Shown piece by piece: positions 3,144 through 37,698 of a stretch of DNA of 38,445 nt. Location of the stretch: positions 1 through 38,445 of IMG/VR virus record IMGVR_UViG_3300047550_004288; one strand, written 5' to 3'. Within the stretch, counting starts at the first letter, position 1. Every line of letters begins with the position of its first letter. A program made the position numbers and the translations under genes. The notes beneath the pieces were generated by a model. The model was given only the letters and a program-made list of their open reading frames with translations, was not told the origin of the DNA and ran no database searches. Origin of the DNA: a virus.

Positions 3144-3218
3144 GGGACTGTCGCCTATGGGTTAAGGCCCACTGCTTATAACGGTGTGAACTGAGTTCAA
3201 GTCTCAGCAGTCCTACCA
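3144..3218 (+). tRNA. tRNA-Ile (anticodon TAT)
   Basis: A full cloverleaf is visible: acceptor GGGACTG with CAGTCCT, D-arm GCC/GGC, anticodon stem CACTG/CGGTG with loop CTTATAA, and T-arm CTGAG/CTCAG with TTCAAGT. CCA is encoded at the end. The anticodon UAU would read AUA, a codon favoured in AT-rich phage genes and usually read in bacteria by a modified CAU tRNA, so this is an unusual isoacceptor. Confidence 0.85.
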
Positions 3219-3291
3219 GCTCGATTAGCTATCTGGTGAAAGCACCCGACTCATAATCGGATACAGGTGGGTTCGATCCCCTCATCGAGCA
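3219..3291 (+). tRNA. tRNA-Met (anticodon CAT)
   Basis: The acceptor stem GCTCGAT/ATCGAGC is perfect, the anticodon loop is CTCATAA, and the T-loop is TTCGATC with one mismatch in the T-stem. It begins directly after the CCA of the previous tRNA; its own CCA is not encoded. A CAT anticodon could also belong to an Ile tRNA modified with lysidine; the sequence alone does not decide. Confidence 0.88.
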
Positions 3292-3292
3292 C

Positions 3293-3321
3293 TTGACCAT
3301 CAGGACTTTTTGAGTTATGAT
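3293..3321 (+). promoter_or_regulatory. Internal sigma-70-like promoter within an inverted repeat
   Basis: TTGACC (3293-3298), 17-bp spacer, TATGAT (3316-3321). The -35 lies in GACCATCA, which is repeated inverted as TGATGGTC overlapping and following the -10. Confidence 0.55.
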
Positions 3322-3334
3322 GGTCTCATACCAC

Positions 3335-3419
3335 GGGGATGTGGTGGAAGTGGTAGACACACCAGACTTAAAATCTGTTGGGCATAACGCCCGTGGGGGT
3401 TCAAGTCCCCCCGTCCCTA
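3335..3419 (+). tRNA. tRNA-Leu (anticodon TAA)
   Basis: A class II tRNA with a long variable arm (TGGGC...GCCCG region), acceptor GGGGATG/CGTCCCT with two wobble pairs, anticodon loop CTTAAAA and T-arm GGGGG/CCCCC. It reads the AT-rich Leu codon UUA. Confidence 0.92.
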
Positions 3420-3460
3420 CTAGGCAATTATGAGATCTATTTCTTATAATTGTTTATCTT

Positions 3461-3534
<74 letters not shown>

Positions 3535-3535
3535 C

Positions 3536-3567
3536 TTGACTTTTTATAAAAAAGTCTTCTATATAAT
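3536..3567 (+). promoter_or_regulatory. Internal promoter-like element overlapping a palindrome
   Basis: TTGACT (3536-3541) is followed by TATAAT at 3562-3567 (20-bp spacing) or CTATAT at 17-bp spacing. The -35 box begins the perfect inverted repeat GACTTTTT-ATA-AAAAAGTC (3538-3556). Confidence 0.45.
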
Positions 3568-3572
3568 AAAAT

Positions 3573-3662
3573 GGAAGGGTGGCCGAGTGGTTTAAGGCAG
3601 CAGTCTTGAAAACTGCCGTAGGTGCAAGTCTACCGTGGGTTCGAATCCGACCCCTTCCGCCA
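3573..3662 (+). tRNA. tRNA-Ser (anticodon TGA)
   Basis: A class II tRNA with a long variable arm (GTAGGTGCAAGTCTAC), acceptor GGAAGGG/CCCTTCC, anticodon stem GCAGT/ACTGC with loop CTTGAAA, and encoded CCA. It reads UCA. Confidence 0.93.
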
Positions 3663-3736
3663 CGGGATGTAGCTCAGTTTGGTAGAGCACTCGCTTTGGG
3701 AGCGAGTGGCCGTAGGTTCAAATCCTATCATCCCGA
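3663..3736 (+). tRNA. tRNA-Pro (anticodon TGG)
   Basis: It starts directly after the tRNA-Ser CCA. Acceptor CGGGATG/CATCCCG, anticodon stem CTCGC/GCGAG with loop TTTGGGA, T-arm GTAGG/CCTAT. It reads CCA, the main Pro codon in these genes. Confidence 0.94.
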
Positions 3737-3768
3737 CTTGGAGATTTATTCTCCATATATAAACTGAT

Positions 3769-3831
3769 AGAGGGTAAGTCTCTGTTATATCCTTATGAGA
3801 TATATTACACTTACTCCATCAAATGTAGGAA
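3769..3831 (+). repeat. Structured spacer RNA element, copy 1
   Basis: This and the segment at 4479-4541 share an identical 20-nt core (3782-3801, CTGTTATATCC onward) and similar flanks. Both fold: GGGTAAGT pairs with ACTTACTC here, and an inner ATATC/GATAT stem closes a CTTATGA loop. The stem bases differ from the second copy while pairing is kept. Confidence 0.6.
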
Positions 3832-3911
3832 GTGCAACACCTCTCGCTGGTTTATACTGGATGATGTGAAAGGTGATTCTGTCCGCACATAGAAATCCCT
3901 CCTACCACCAT

Positions 3912-3984
3912 TCCCTTATAGCTCAATTGGCAGAGCACGGAGCTGTTAACTCTGGGGTTCCTGGTTCGAGTCCAGGTGGGGGAG
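3912..3984 (+). tRNA. tRNA-Asn (anticodon GTT)
   Basis: Acceptor TCCCTTA/TGGGGGA with two G-T pairs, anticodon loop CTGTTAA, T-arm CCTGG/CCAGG with TTCGAGT, discriminator G. CCA is not encoded. The 175-nt spacer before it holds copy 1 of the repeated RNA element and a GTAGGA...TCCTAC stem. Confidence 0.93.
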
Positions 3985-4074
3985 TTGGAAGTGATCCTGC
4001 GATAACCTCAAGAGCACTCCTTCCAACTAAAACCTAGAATATTTCTAGGTCAGGGGGATGGCCTCCCCTGTTTC

Positions 4075-4147
4075 GCCCTTGTAGCTCAGATGGTAGAGCG
4101 CGGCTTTTGTAAAGCCGATGTCGCAAGTTCAAGTCTTGTCGGGGGCT
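4075..4147 (+). tRNA. tRNA-Thr (anticodon TGT)
   Basis: Acceptor GCCCTTG/CGGGGGC, anticodon stem CGGCT/AGCCG with loop TTTGTAA, T-arm GCAAG/CTTGT. It reads ACA. The 90-nt spacer before it folds into three successive hairpins (AGTTGGAAG/CTTCCAACT, CCTAGAA/TTCTAGG, AGGGG/CCCCT). Confidence 0.94.
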
Positions 4148-4148
4148 C

Positions 4149-4177
4149 TTGACATAATACTCATTATGTCTTATACT
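4149..4177 (+). promoter_or_regulatory. Internal sigma-70 promoter with -35 in a hairpin stem
   Basis: TTGACA (4149-4154), 17-bp spacer, TATACT (4172-4177). GACATAAT (4151-4158) pairs with ATTATGTC (4163-4170), so the -35 and spacer form a perfect 8-bp inverted repeat. Confidence 0.65.
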
Positions 4178-4225
4178 TCTCAAGTCCGTGTGAAGGAAGT
4201 GAGTTGGGTATTTTACCCAACATTT

Positions 4226-4297
4226 GGGAGATTAGCTCAACGGTAGAGCAACGTGCTGATAACGCGGAGGTTGGTGGTTCAAATCCATTATTTCCCA
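4226..4297 (+). tRNA. tRNA-Ile (anticodon GAT)
   Basis: Acceptor GGGAGAT/ATTTCCC, anticodon loop CTGATAA, stem ACGTG/CGCGG with one mismatch, T-arm GGTGG/CCATT with wobbles. It reads AUC and AUU. It is the second Ile tRNA of the array; a GTTGGGTA/TACCCAAC hairpin lies just upstream. Confidence 0.9.
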
Positions 4298-4355
4298 CTA
4301 GTGGGTTATAAACAACTTTCATCAAAGCATTTGTTCTCTGGCATATTCTCCACTC

Positions 4356-4440
4356 GCCCGAATGGCGGAATTGGTAAACGCAATAGGTTTAGGTCCTATC
4401 GCCCTACGACGGCTTACAGGTTCAAGTCCTGTTTCGGGTA
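4356..4440 (+). tRNA. tRNA-Leu (anticodon TAG)
   Basis: A class II tRNA: acceptor GCCCGAA/TTCGGGT, anticodon stem ATAGG/CCTAT with loop TTTAGGT, long variable arm, T-arm ACAGG/CCTGT. It reads CUA. Confidence 0.93.
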
Positions 4441-4469
4441 TTGACAAACTCTCAAAAGTTTGTTACTAT
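4441..4469 (+). promoter_or_regulatory. Internal promoter with hairpin in the spacer
   Basis: TTGACA (4441-4446), 17-bp spacer, TACTAT (4464-4469). ACAAACT and AGTTTGT form an inverted repeat starting in the -35 box, as in the other spacer promoters. Confidence 0.55.
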
Positions 4470-4478
4470 ATAAAAAGA

Positions 4479-4541
4479 TGGAGCATAAGTCCCTGTTATA
4501 TCCTTATGAGATGTATCACACTTATGCCATCACAAATGCGG
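4479..4541 (+). repeat. Structured spacer RNA element, copy 2
   Basis: Second copy of the element at 3769-3831. The outer stem GCATAAGT/ACTTATGC is perfect here, and the core (4493-4512) is identical to copy 1. The inner stem is ATATC/GATGT, where an A-T pair of copy 1 becomes a G-T pair. The element ends at the first base of tRNA-Gly. Confidence 0.6.
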
Positions 4542-4609
4542 ACATAGTTCAGTGGTAGAACGCTATCCTTCCAAGTTAGATGTCGTCGGTTCGAGTCCGA
4601 TTGTCCGCT
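4538..4609 (+). tRNA. tRNA-Gly (anticodon TCC)
   Basis: Acceptor GCGGACA/TGTCCGC, anticodon loop CTTCCAA, T-arm GTCGG/CCGAT with TTCGAGT. It reads GGA. It is followed by a hairpin TTGGAAATC/GATTTCCAA. Confidence 0.94.
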
Positions 4610-4760
4610 CTTGGAAATCGACAGATTTCCAAAGGGTGTGAGATATTATCATCACCCACACATTAAATTAGAGTTTTGTATCTTTTCGCAAAAGGTTCCG
4701 TGTGAGTAGCGTAACTATTCCGTATGCTCTATGAGCGAGATCACGTCACGATCTCATCCA

Positions 4761-4833
4761 GGGAGCATAGCTCAGAGGTAGTAGCGTCTGCTTTACACGC
4801 AGAATGTCGGGGGTTCAAATCCCTCTGCTCCCA
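4761..4833 (+). tRNA. tRNA-Val (anticodon TAC)
   Basis: Acceptor GGGAGCA/TGCTCCC, anticodon stem TCTGC/GCAGA with loop TTTACAC, T-arm GGGGG/CCCTC. It reads GUA. The 150-nt spacer before it has several hairpins, including GAGATC/GATCTC, but no tRNA or ORF. Confidence 0.94.
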
Positions 4834-34456: not shown

Positions 34457-35128
34457 ATGACCCTAGATCTTCATAACTTTTTTAAGTATTATGATGATAG
34501 TAATGAGAATCATATAGCAGCAGTTCAGTGGTTGGAGGACAATCTTCCTGCTGAATTTTTAGATGATTCAGAAACAGATTGGATTGGAATTTATAGAACT
34601 AAACCACCTACACCAGCAGTTCTTGATGTTCCTTATTTCAATCAAGTCGATAATTACAGAGACGCACATAGAACTTGTAACTCATCATCTTGTGCCATGT
34701 GTCTTGCTTTCCTGAAACCAGGAAGCATTAAAGGTGATGACGAATATGTAAAGAAGGTATTTGCCATTGGTGATACAACAGATCATGCTGTTCAGACAAA
34801 AGTTCTGGCAGGTTATGGTATTAAGTCAAGTTTTAGTTACAACCTTTCATTTGCTGATATTGATAAGAGTCTTGATAGAGGAAAACCTGTTGTAATTGGT
34901 ATTCTTCATCGTGGTCCTTTATCTGCACCTACTGGCGGGCATATGTGTGTAGTCATTGGTAAAACTCCAGATGGTAAAGGATATTTTGTAAATGATCCTT
35001 ATGGATCATTAAATGATAATTATACAGGTCCTGTGACTAACGGTAAGAAGACAATTTACACAAAAGCAGTTCTTAAGTATCGTTGGTGTCCAGGAGGTAA
35101 TGATGGATGGGGAAGAATCTTCGATTAA
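34457..35128 (+). CDS. C39-like cysteine peptidase with N-terminal anchor domain
   Basis: Residues about 4-47 form a domain (LHNFFKYYDDSNENHIAAVQ, then WLEDNLP and W42...IYR) that recurs in the next-but-one gene. After a Pro-rich linker, a peptidase C39-like domain follows: VPYFNQVD, C74 in RTCNSSSCAM (the catalytic cysteine, with Asn in place of Gly after it), His in GGHMCVVIG and Asp in VNDPYG. C39-like enzymes cut peptides and may act on cell-wall cross-links or on precursor proteins. It is driven by a perfect late promoter, so it is probably virion- or lysis-associated. Function of the N-terminal domain is unknown. Confidence 0.78.
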   Translation: MTLDLHNFFKYYDDSNENHIAAVQWLEDNLPAEFLDDSETDWIGIYRTKPPTPAVLDVPYFNQVDNYRDAHRTCNSSSCAMCLAFLKPGSIKGDDEYVKKVFAIGDTTDHAVQTKVLAGYGIKSSFSYNLSFADIDKSLDRGKPVVIGILHRGPLSAPTGGHMCVVIGKTPDGKGYFVNDPYGSLNDNYTGPVTNGKKTIYTKAVLKYRWCPGGNDGWGRIFD

Positions 35129-35249
35129 TTTTAGAAGAAAGATCTTACAAAGAATTAAAGATCTAACAAACAGCGGAAAACATTTAGAGGCACAACAACT
35201 TTATCAAAAGTATTTCGGAGGAAGTAATGGCAAAAGTCGATCTTCATAA
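35103..35249 (+). CDS. Small hypothetical protein (48 aa)
   Basis: The ORF starts inside the end of the peptidase gene and overlaps the start of the following anchor-GH19 gene. The protein begins MDGEESSINFRRKILQRIKD and has a helix KHLEAQQLYQKYF. It is basic and helical, with no recognised family. The overlap with both neighbours and lack of a clear RBS lower confidence. Confidence 0.45.
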   Translation: MDGEESSINFRRKILQRIKDLTNSGKHLEAQQLYQKYFGGSNGKSRSS

Positions 35250-35942
35250 CTTTTTTAAGTTTTATGATGAAAAAAATCCAAATCATGTAAAAGCAGTTCA
35301 GTGGTTAGAGGATAATCTTCCAATTAAATATCTGGAAGACAACTCTGAGTGGGCGGAGATTTATAGAAAAAAGTAGTATCCGCTGCTCCTGCTTCATCTG
35401 GTAGCAGCGGTCCTGTTCTTGTAACAAAGACACAACTTGCTTACATTTGGAATTGTGGTGAAAATCTAATTGGTGATGATGAAGTAAATGAAATGAATCA
35501 CGGTTTAAATTTCTTTAAAATCAATACACCAGTTCGTATCAGACACTTCCTTTCACAAATCTCTCACGAAAGTGGTGGTGGAAGATATAAGGAAGAACTT
35601 GCTTCAGGTGCTGATTACGAAGGTCGTTCAGATCTTGGTAATACTCAATCAGGTGACGGCAAAAAGTATAAGGGTGCCGGATACATTCAAATGACCGGAA
35701 GAGCAAATTATCAGGCATTTGCAAATTACATCAAGGATCCTAAAGTTATGGATGGTGTAACTTATGTTGCAAAAAACTATCCTATGACAAGTGCAGGTTT
35801 CTGGTGGCACAATAACAATATGAATGATTTATGTGATTCAAACCCAACAGTTGATCAAGTTACAAAAAGAGTCAACGGTGGTTATAACGGTTTAGATGAT
35901 CGTAAAAAGTATTATGCTCGTTGCTGTGAAGTTATCAAATAA
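35227..35942 (+). CDS. GH19 lysozyme/chitinase-family endolysin, probably joined by a -1 frameshift
   Basis: The first frame (35227-35376, good RBS GGAGGAAG) encodes 49 residues: the same anchor domain as in the peptidase gene, ending EIYRKK and stop. The GH19 domain is in the -1 frame, with no usable start until an ATG at 35493 inside the domain. At 35367-35373 the slippery heptamer A AAA AAG stands right before the stop; slipping by -1 continues as [13 protein letters not shown], then GH19, giving about 238 residues. Key GH19 motifs: ISHESGGG (E115), DYEGR (E132) and [15 protein letters not shown]. An 8-bp hairpin follows the heptamer. The enzyme would cut peptidoglycan sugars. An indel or real split gene is the alternative. 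Confidence 0.8.
35367..35410 (+). promoter_or_regulatory. Candidate programmed -1 frameshift signal
   Basis: Slippery A AAA AAG (35367-35373) is followed directly by TAG in frame 0. GGAG lies 8 bases upstream (35355-35358), and CCGCTGCT (35380-35387) pairs with AGCAGCGG (35403-35410), starting 6 nt after the heptamer. These are the three elements of the E. coli dnaX frameshift site. Confidence 0.65.
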
Positions 35943-36084: not shown

Positions 36085-37698
36085 ATGTCTTACACTAAAA
36101 AGGCGCTGGCTGCAGCGTCTGTGCTTCTTATTGGAGTGCCAACAGCAGCATTATCTCATACCAACTCCATTGGATATGTTGGAGGTGGTGGAGGCAGTGT
36201 AACTTTTTGGTATGGTAACTGGCATCCAGGAACTACCTTTAATGAAGGTACTTTGACCCTACAAGGTATCAATGGAACTAATTTTGCTCCAACAACTGTA
36301 AACTGGACTTTACTTTCGGCAACCAGACCAGATGGTTTGATTGATGGTGTAAACTATTTTACTTCTGATGGAACGCAGTTGGTTGCTTATCCTAGTAATC
36401 CAATATCTTATACTTGGCAGGGCGTAACCTTTACAGGTCTTGCCGCTGGTGATTACCAGTTCACCTATAATGCCGCAGGGTCTCCAACAGTGAACTGGAT
36501 GCCTATGGATAGTGTGATTCTTTCCAGCACAGTTTCACTTTCAGCAGCAGCACTTTCTGGTGATGCTAACCAAAATGGTATTCTTGACATTTATGAGACA
36601 GGTGGAACACCCCCACCACCAACGTTGGTATCAAGTGCTCTTACTTATAATGTAAATGTAAGTATTGCGAATCCTACTTTTACATCTAATACTGTTATTA
36701 CCCACACTTCCTCTGAGAGTAGTGGAAAGCAGACACTGAACTTTGATGCTGCTACAACTGTTACTGCCACAACTGTAACAACCACCACAACCACACCAGT
36801 CACAACTGATACTTATAGTGACAACTCCACTGTTGTTACAAACGGAACACCAGTTGTCACTATAAGTTCTGCAAGTCAGTCTGAAGTTTCACATCAGTAC
36901 GGTGATTTCTCTGGTCGTATTGATCAACTAGAAGTTCTTGATGATATTAGTGGTTCTATCAATAGACTTCTTGAACATGAACCAATTACAAATCATAAGA
37001 GAAGATTTAGAGTATTTGAGAACAATAGATTTGCACAATCATACAATGCTGATGAATATAAGGCATCATCAAGAATACTTGGTGGTGGGTTTGAATATGA
37101 TTTAACAAAAGGATGGACTGCTGGATCACATTATAATGACATCTATACTGAAATGAAAGGTGTAGATAGTGTCTCACATCTTAAGAGACAGCATGTTGGT
37201 TTGTTCAATAGTTTCCACGGTAGAGATATTGCATTAGTTACCAATGCTGGTGCATCACAAGACAAGTATGATTATTCTAGAACACTTGAGTATTCTTTTG
37301 GAAACTGGGGTAAAGTGGAAGGTCAACAATGGTGGGTTCATAATAGATTGTATGTAAATAACTCTGGATGGTTTAAACCATTCTTAGGTTATACTGTTTC
37401 TAATATAAGTAGAAATGCATATACCGAAACAGGTTCACCAGAATCTGCCAGAAGTGTTGGTGCATTTAATAAGACAACTCATGTTGGAGAAGCAGGCCTC
37501 AAACTGGAAACTAGATTTGGTGGCAAGAAACACGATGTTTTTGGTGTCAGTGTTGATGGTGCTTATGGTACTGATAATTCTTATGGGATTACCGCAGCAT
37601 TAGATTACAAAGAAGTATTGTTTATTGAAGGTTCTCATGGTGTAAGTGATGATCTAACTACTAATTCGATTGCTGGTAAAGTTAAATTTAGGTTTTAA
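36085..37698 (+). CDS. Secreted autotransporter-like outer-membrane beta-barrel protein
   Basis: Residues 1-24 are a signal peptide (KKALAAASVLLIGVPTAALS). The exported part includes a Gly-rich stretch, an aromatic region with TFWYGNWHPGTTF and a calcium-loop-like GDANQNGILDIYE (about 159-171), followed by a long Thr-rich low-complexity tract (about 195-262). After a short coiled part (RIDQLEVLDDISGS) the C-terminal 240 residues have alternating strand patterns and end KVKFRF, an outer-membrane barrel signature. The layout (signal, passenger, linker, barrel) is that of an autotransporter. Its role in a phage is unknown; it may change the surface of the infected cell. Confidence 0.78.
   Translation: MSYTKKALAAASVLLIGVPTAALSHTNSIGYVGGGGGSVTFWYGNWHPGTTFNEGTLTLQGINGTNFAPTTVNWTLLSATRPDGLIDGVNYFTSDGTQLVAYPSNPISYTWQGVTFTGLAAGDYQFTYNAAGSPTVNWMPMDSVILSSTVSLSAAALSGDANQNGILDIYETGGTPPPPTLVSSALTYNVNVSIANPTFTSNTVITHTSSESSGKQTLNFDAATTVTATTVTTTTTTPVTTDTYSDNSTVVTNGTPVVTISSASQSEVSHQYGDFSGRIDQLEVLDDISGSINRLLEHEPITNHKRRFRVFENNRFAQSYNADEYKASSRILGGGFEYDLTKGWTAGSHYNDIYTEMKGVDSVSHLKRQHVGLFNSFHGRDIALVTNAGASQDKYDYSRTLEYSFGNWGKVEGQQWWVHNRLYVNNSGWFKPFLGYTVSNISRNAYTETGSPESARSVGAFNKTTHVGEAGLKLETRFGGKKHDVFGVSVDGAYGTDNSYGITAALDYKEVLFIEGSHGVSDDLTTNSIAGKVKFRF

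Follow-up and report, generated by a model that had tools for sequence, protein, structure and literature searches.

Programmed -1 ribosomal frameshifting of the dnaX type very probably yields two products, a free 49-aa 'anchor' domain and an endolysin fused to that domain, from a single gene of a virus whose relatives by sequence are T4-like Synechococcus phages (Kyanoviridae). The gene lies in a stretch of 38,445 nt, here called the window, which is IMG/VR record IMGVR_UViG_3300047550_004288, positions 1 to 38,445, read as a single strand 5' to 3'. In the window, the enzyme is predicted to be made only when the ribosome slips. A preliminary description of this DNA had proposed a dnaX-like -1 frameshift, and comparison with relatives strongly supports this; the upstream GGAG that formed part of the proposal is not conserved, and the layout seen in the window is a minority form. 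To judge from the comparison, the finding is also wider than first described, with the cassette present across an enzyme family and in both frame orientations. Viruses of freshwater cyanobacteria thus carry a cassette that probably makes two proteins from one lysis-enzyme gene.

Layout of the locus

The zero-frame ORF encoding the 49-aa domain (35227-35376, + strand) ends AGA AAA AAG TAG and is predicted to give the free-domain product. The slippery heptamer A_AAA_AAG occupies 35367-35373 and is in phase with the zero frame, as had been described, and the zero-frame stop, TAG, abuts it at 35374-35376. A -1 slip leads into the GH19 frame at the GTA codon at 35373. From there the -1 frame, which begins VVSAAP, is open through the GH19-like endolysin domain to 35942 (35373-35942, + strand), and its earliest ATG is at 35493. 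The 8-bp perfect stem of the preliminary description is confirmed: the 5' arm, CCGCTGCT (35380-35387), starts 6 nt 3' of the heptamer and pairs with the 3' arm, AGCAGCGG (35403-35410). A Shine-Dalgarno-like GGAG, a possible stimulator, is located 8 nt 5' of the heptamer (35355-35358). All of these elements are on the + strand.

The neighbouring upstream gene (34457-35128, + strand) encodes a C39-type peptidase which, as noted at the outset, has a second copy of this domain at its N-terminus, in frame with the catalytic part. Its junction lacks the heptamer and serves as a negative control; A_AAA_AAG is present at the corresponding junction in 0 of 112 C39 paralogues. A further 49-aa ORF (MMDGEESSINF...YQKYFGG; 35100-35249) overlaps both the C39 gene, at its 3' end, and the anchor gene, at its 5' end; L004, L005, L009, L013 and L159 have ORFs resembling it in the equivalent position. 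Directly 3' of the locus, 36085-37698 encodes a 537-aa protein without a Pfam match; its positional counterpart in DSL-LC03 bears the annotation autotransporter outer-membrane beta-barrel protein.

A cassette of the dnaX type calls for a single host tRNA-Lys that decodes both AAA and AAG. The window contains 12 phage tRNA genes, clustered at 3144-4833, and tRNA-Lys is absent from these 12, so slippage on AAG would rely on the host tRNA-Lys.

Frameshift-type genes

The layout of the window recurs in L003, L004, L005, L006, L008, L011 and L012, as shown by scanning viral contigs and by searching directly for the pattern. L003 is the same gene as that of the window (100% protein identity), leaving seven distinct frameshift-type genes including the window's. 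The matches among L003-L012 come from six metagenome datasets, as judged by contig name. The seven genes differ pairwise by 7-20% of nucleotides, with a pairwise dS of about 0.3-2.9, and have all kept the heptamer, the zero-frame stop and the stem, the comparison of homologues that had been suggested as a check. In each there are exactly six A's followed by TAG (TAA in L005), and the short product ends right at the slip in 7/7.

Homopolymers are common sites of indels and single-frame relatives of the gene exist, both of which would be expected if the window's layout reflected a sequencing or assembly indel, or a gene in decay. A read error is ruled out by the six other distinct genes that share the six A's and the zero-frame TAG or TAA at 7-20% divergence, and a pseudogene by the conservation and by the dN/dS values. 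In the seven genes, dN/dS is 0.046 for GH19, 0.103 for the anchor and, for the stretch from the slip to the first -1-frame ATG (codon 40), a closely similar 0.116 (dS 0.73), and the -1-frame linker is conserved. With the same state held in seven distinct genes at such synonymous distances, an indel or decay has a negligible probability.

The -1 frame before the first ATG aligns with the GH19 N-terminus of the single-frame fusions described below. The preliminary description had held that the GH19 domain lacks a start that would include its conserved N-terminus, and this is true of the -1 frame in all seven genes: no ATG, GTG, TTG, CTG or ATH was found 5' of the conserved QL[AS]Y[IV]W motif. 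The earliest -1-frame ATG is at codon 40 in six genes; in L008 it is at codon 41, with a TTG at codon 32 in addition. These codons could in principle serve as an internal start (ATG 35493 in the window), with GH19 made separately by coupled reinitiation after the TAG and without any frameshift. This is highly improbable, since the stretch before the ATG is strongly selected as protein in the -1 frame and matches the N-terminus of the single-frame enzymes, and the conserved motif has no start before it. Since selection on the -1 frame as protein begins at the slip and the frame has no start of its own, ribosomes can reach it only from the upstream ORF.

Single-frame relatives

The anchor domain is also found in single-frame fusions, comprising eight GH19 genes and about 98 GH24 genes. 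The GH24 set includes DSL-LC02 and DSL-LC03; as these were assembled from metagenomes and are uncultured (PMC10611076), the genes found to carry the cassette include none from a cultured phage. At the junction, A_AAA_AAG is in phase in seven of the eight single-frame GH19 genes and in the approximately 98 GH24 genes. The sole exception is L018, in which it is replaced by A_AAA_AGG. Taken together, the heptamer is in phase in 112/113 genes. Single-frame homologues without a slippery heptamer had been named in advance as evidence against a frameshift; among such homologues sharing domain and junction, only L018 lacks it. The more distant GH19 relatives, L020-L041, have no heptamer, and their N-terminal domain is different or diverged.

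In 95/105 single-frame genes, a -1-frame stop is present at the second codon past the slip (background 0.12 per codon), and in the other 10 this early stop is absent. It may be TAG, TAA or TGA, and is formed via Thr-Ser, Gly-Asn, Ser-Ser, Thr-Glu, Asn-Glu, Ala-Glu or Ser-Asp. The single-frame genes would therefore correspond to the arrangement of E. coli dnaX, with the long product in frame and the short one obtained by slipping, and the window and its kin to its mirror image. The window layout is the minority, frame-swapped form of this wider system. In the GH19 tree the frameshift-type and single-frame forms are intermixed, with three changes; a single frameshift-type clade is not rejected (AU p 0.087).

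Two further contigs carry GH24 genes. L247 (VGTM01000161.1) is a cyanophage contig with a GH24 cassette (GGA AAA AAG ACT AGT) that has been assigned to a 'Euryarchaeota' MAG, most probably through misbinning. In L252 (the isolate Synechococcus phage S-CRM01, g113/g112), a GH24 lysozyme is annotated as two hypothetical proteins. At about 1300-1350, near CTAAAAGAAAAAGATGG and 5' of the conserved C-terminus, its frame shifts by -1, which may be a sequencing error or another frameshift.

Conservation of the heptamer

Across 96 GH24 genes, codons 48-50 (GGA/AAA/AAG) show zero synonymous changes on the tree. GGA ranks lowest among 21 Gly columns, AAA and AAG take the two lowest places among 19 Lys columns, and nearby codons provide a contrast, with 27 synonymous changes at Arg47 and 29 at Ala43. 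No in-phase A_AAA_AAG is found elsewhere in the gene in 95 GH24 genes.

The GGAG had been proposed as a further stimulator in the manner of dnaX. It is indeed present in the window at the spacing given above, but the equivalent region in relatives is unprotected, with Ala43 and Glu44 (16 synonymous changes) free to vary on the GH24 tree. The likeness to dnaX therefore holds for the heptamer, the stem and the short product ending at the slip, and does not extend to a conserved upstream Shine-Dalgarno element.

The downstream stem

The linker that encodes the stem is rich in Ala, Gly and Ser, so chance stems had to be excluded, a caveat already attached to the preliminary description. The window stem has a predicted energy of -17 kcal/mol, with a z-score of -4.3 against dinucleotide shuffles and of -3.1 against synonymous recoding of the linker; for the frameshift-type genes the mean MFE z against synonymous recoding is -2.8. 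A stem starting exactly at +6 is found at p < 0.05 against synonymous recoding in 36/74 distinct GH24 sequences.

The 6-mer at +6 has a perfect 6-bp Watson-Crick partner downstream in 67/90 distinct sequences, compared with at most 8/90 for 6-mers at other offsets (0 to 15); the sequences are related and the events non-independent, and the offset and arm-swap controls carry the same relatedness. In the arm-swap test, the complement of a sequence's own arm scores 0.78 (class mean), against 0.27 for the arms of other sequences. The arms co-vary as GCTGCA/TGCAGC, GCGGCA/TGCCGC, GCTGGA/TCCAGC, GCTACA/TGTAGC, GCTGTA/TACAGC and CCGCTG/CAGCGG, and pair 3 of the stem is found as T-A, G-C, C-G and A-T. 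Alignment of the downstream regions with MAFFT leaves the 3' arms unaligned because loop length varies, and the arm-swap and offset tests were used instead. The stem thus goes beyond chance despite the composition of the linker, exceeding synonymous recoding as well as the offset and arm-swap controls.

Structures that stimulate frameshifting are placed 5-8 nt past the heptamer (PMC4066793), and the start at +6 falls within this range for -1 stimulators. Weak stems are present in the single-frame genes L098 and L106. In DSL-LC02 the stem is unremarkable against dinucleotide shuffles (z -0.3), since the Ala-rich linker itself favours stems; against synonymous recoding, the more pertinent control here, it has p 0.03. 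A stem at this place is shared by the single-frame relatives too, so its presence is by itself no mark of the layout seen in the window. A search of Rfam gave no match.

A separate lineage with G_GGA_AAG

A_AAA_AAG has been lost in L159, L172 and L259, which come from three datasets (L159 and L172 differ at 16/934 bases). Here the domain runs into a short Cys-x-x-Cys tail ending CTG GGA AAG TAG. G_GGA_AAG, which is also the slippery site of lambda G/GT, is in phase, the zero-frame stop is immediate, and GH24 is in the -1 frame. An 11-bp stem begins at +6 (z -6.5). As a GTG start is possible in the -1 frame, this lineage is weaker as a stand-alone case. It has the appearance of an independent re-invention, reaching the same layout from different bases.

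This lineage also bears on slippage by RNA polymerase, in which the six A's would give rise to mRNAs with an extra base and ordinary translation of these would produce the fusion. The A run is correctly placed for such a mechanism, which is that of Thermus dnaX (PMC5009743). It remains very unlikely here: the genes counted have a run of six A's, the heptamer never departs from the X_XXY_YYZ phase, the stem is conserved exactly at +6, and G_GGA_AAG contains no homopolymer. Ribosomal frameshifting is the preferred reading.

Identity of the enzyme and of the N-terminal domain

The GH19-like domain of the window has 63-69% identity to cyanophage proteins, annotated for the most part as endolysin, and matches the PHROG endolysin family with an E value of 1.4e-41. 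Against Pfam PF00182 it scores 13.3 bits, below the cut-off of 25.5. The GH24 (T4-type lysozyme) domain of the relative L083 matches PF00959 with an E value of 1.9e-21 (77 bits; cut-off 22.3).

The C39 peptidase upstream and the GH24 and GH19 relatives have N-terminal domains homologous to the 49-aa domain. Searches of Pfam and NCBIfam gave no match to it, and a search of the PDB gave no relative. An AlphaFold model of the anchor-GH19 protein was poor (pLDDT 46) and was set aside. The name 'anchor' reflects a putative role in binding the wall or a partner.

In L034 and L035, two tandem copies of a domain related to the anchor (hhalign probability 96) precede GH19, without a heptamer at the junction. 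This fits a benefit from having more than one copy of the domain per enzyme. L250 (Synechococcus phage S-CREM1) has one gene of 393 aa, annotated as a lysozyme, in which the anchor domain is internal and lysozyme-like sequence lies N-terminal to it; this is domain shuffling of the same parts. In L105 and L159, zinc-ribbon-like Cys-x-x-Cys inserts are present in the anchor-GH24 linker.

Predicted products and their possible roles

The slippery signal, the two possible products and the -1 frame as protein are conserved, as far as can be read from the genes themselves. In the proposed mechanism, ribosomes would translate the domain, meet the heptamer and pause at the hairpin, which, lying 6 nt 3' of A_AAA_AAG, would stimulate the slip, and we infer that a share do slip back by one base. 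Where the layout is that of the window and its closest kin, the share that does not slip would stop and release a free domain of about 49 residues, and the slipping share would go on to make the enzyme. Most relatives encode the enzyme in frame, and there a slip would terminate one codon on to give the free domain. The fused product would consist of the N-terminal domain, an Ala/Gly/Ser linker and a lysozyme, GH19-like in the window and GH24 in most relatives. The rate of slippage is probably near half, because the frames have been swapped; in dnaX, a one-base change can invert the roles at an efficiency close to 50% (PMC5009743). The slip may in this way dose enzyme and free domain in a fixed ratio.

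We give an even chance to the proposal, made by analogy with other endolysins, that the free domain would associate with the enzyme as an additional subunit, one that binds the wall or a partner. The main functional rival is that the frameshift is real but only controls how much enzyme is made, with the free 49-aa domain a by-product that has no job. Frameshifting often throttles expression, for example in IS transposases (PMC4066793), and any binding by the free domain is putative. Several features argue the other way: the early -1 stop has persisted while both the residues around it and the kind of stop have changed, the roles of the zero and -1 frames have been swapped, which would leave the dose little changed only if both products were similar in amount, and related domains are fused in tandem to GH19 in L034 and L035. 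Control of enzyme amount alone is therefore somewhat unlikely. The fuller reading with a functional free domain is evenly poised, namely that a two-subunit endolysin is widespread in cyanophages, with its free N-terminal domain supplied by a -1 frameshift in a near-even ratio, and that the signal has outlasted exchange of GH19 and GH24, inversion of the frames and re-invention of the heptamer.

For annotation, standard gene calling splits the enzyme of the window's kin and loses its N-terminus, and the short product is missed in the single-frame relatives.

Comparison with known systems

Most of what is known of frameshifting in tailed phages comes from genes for structure and assembly, and lysis enzymes are a class of gene with almost no precedent for it. 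No described case of an endolysin frameshift of this kind was found in the open-licence literature, which is weak evidence of absence. A lactococcal lysin (Shearman 1994), from an unrelated phage group, is cited in the PRFect paper (PMC10885494) as known to be frameshift-containing. Lysis enzymes with such a conserved, swappable cassette would extend tailed-phage frameshifting to a further class of gene. The lambda G/GT tail-assembly chaperone resembles the cassette in that a programmed -1 shift fuses two products in a fixed ratio; those are structural assembly genes, whereas the cyanophage cassette is in lysis enzymes.

The cassette shares with E. coli dnaX (tau/gamma) the A_AAA_AAG heptamer, the hairpin just 3' and, in its common form, the -1 stop one codon in. 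A reversed dnaX, in which the long product is made by the slip and the zero-frame stop comes right after the site, is reported for a few bacteria (PMC5009743). Unlike dnaX, the cyanophage cassette is in a phage lysis enzyme gene and has no conserved upstream Shine-Dalgarno element, and its family includes both orientations in one gene family, two catalytic domains and a second type of heptamer.

In CTP1L, CD27L, Lys170, LysIME-EF1 and LysP7951, the full-length endolysin is accompanied by a free binding-type domain made from the same gene (PMC4777826, PMC9430671). The free domain of CTP1L sets oligomeric state and activity (PMC4777826), and LysP7951 forms a 1:5 complex (PMC9430671). A survey of such two-polypeptide endolysins set aside the phages of Gram-negative hosts, in which isoforms were deemed unlikely. 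The cassette would be a second route to an enzyme with a spare domain, in phages of Gram-negative picocyanobacteria. The known two-polypeptide endolysins use an internal start, provide a C-terminal domain and belong to phages of Gram-positive hosts, whereas the cyanophage endolysins would use a frameshift and provide an N-terminal domain, with the short product predicted to arise from termination rather than from initiation.
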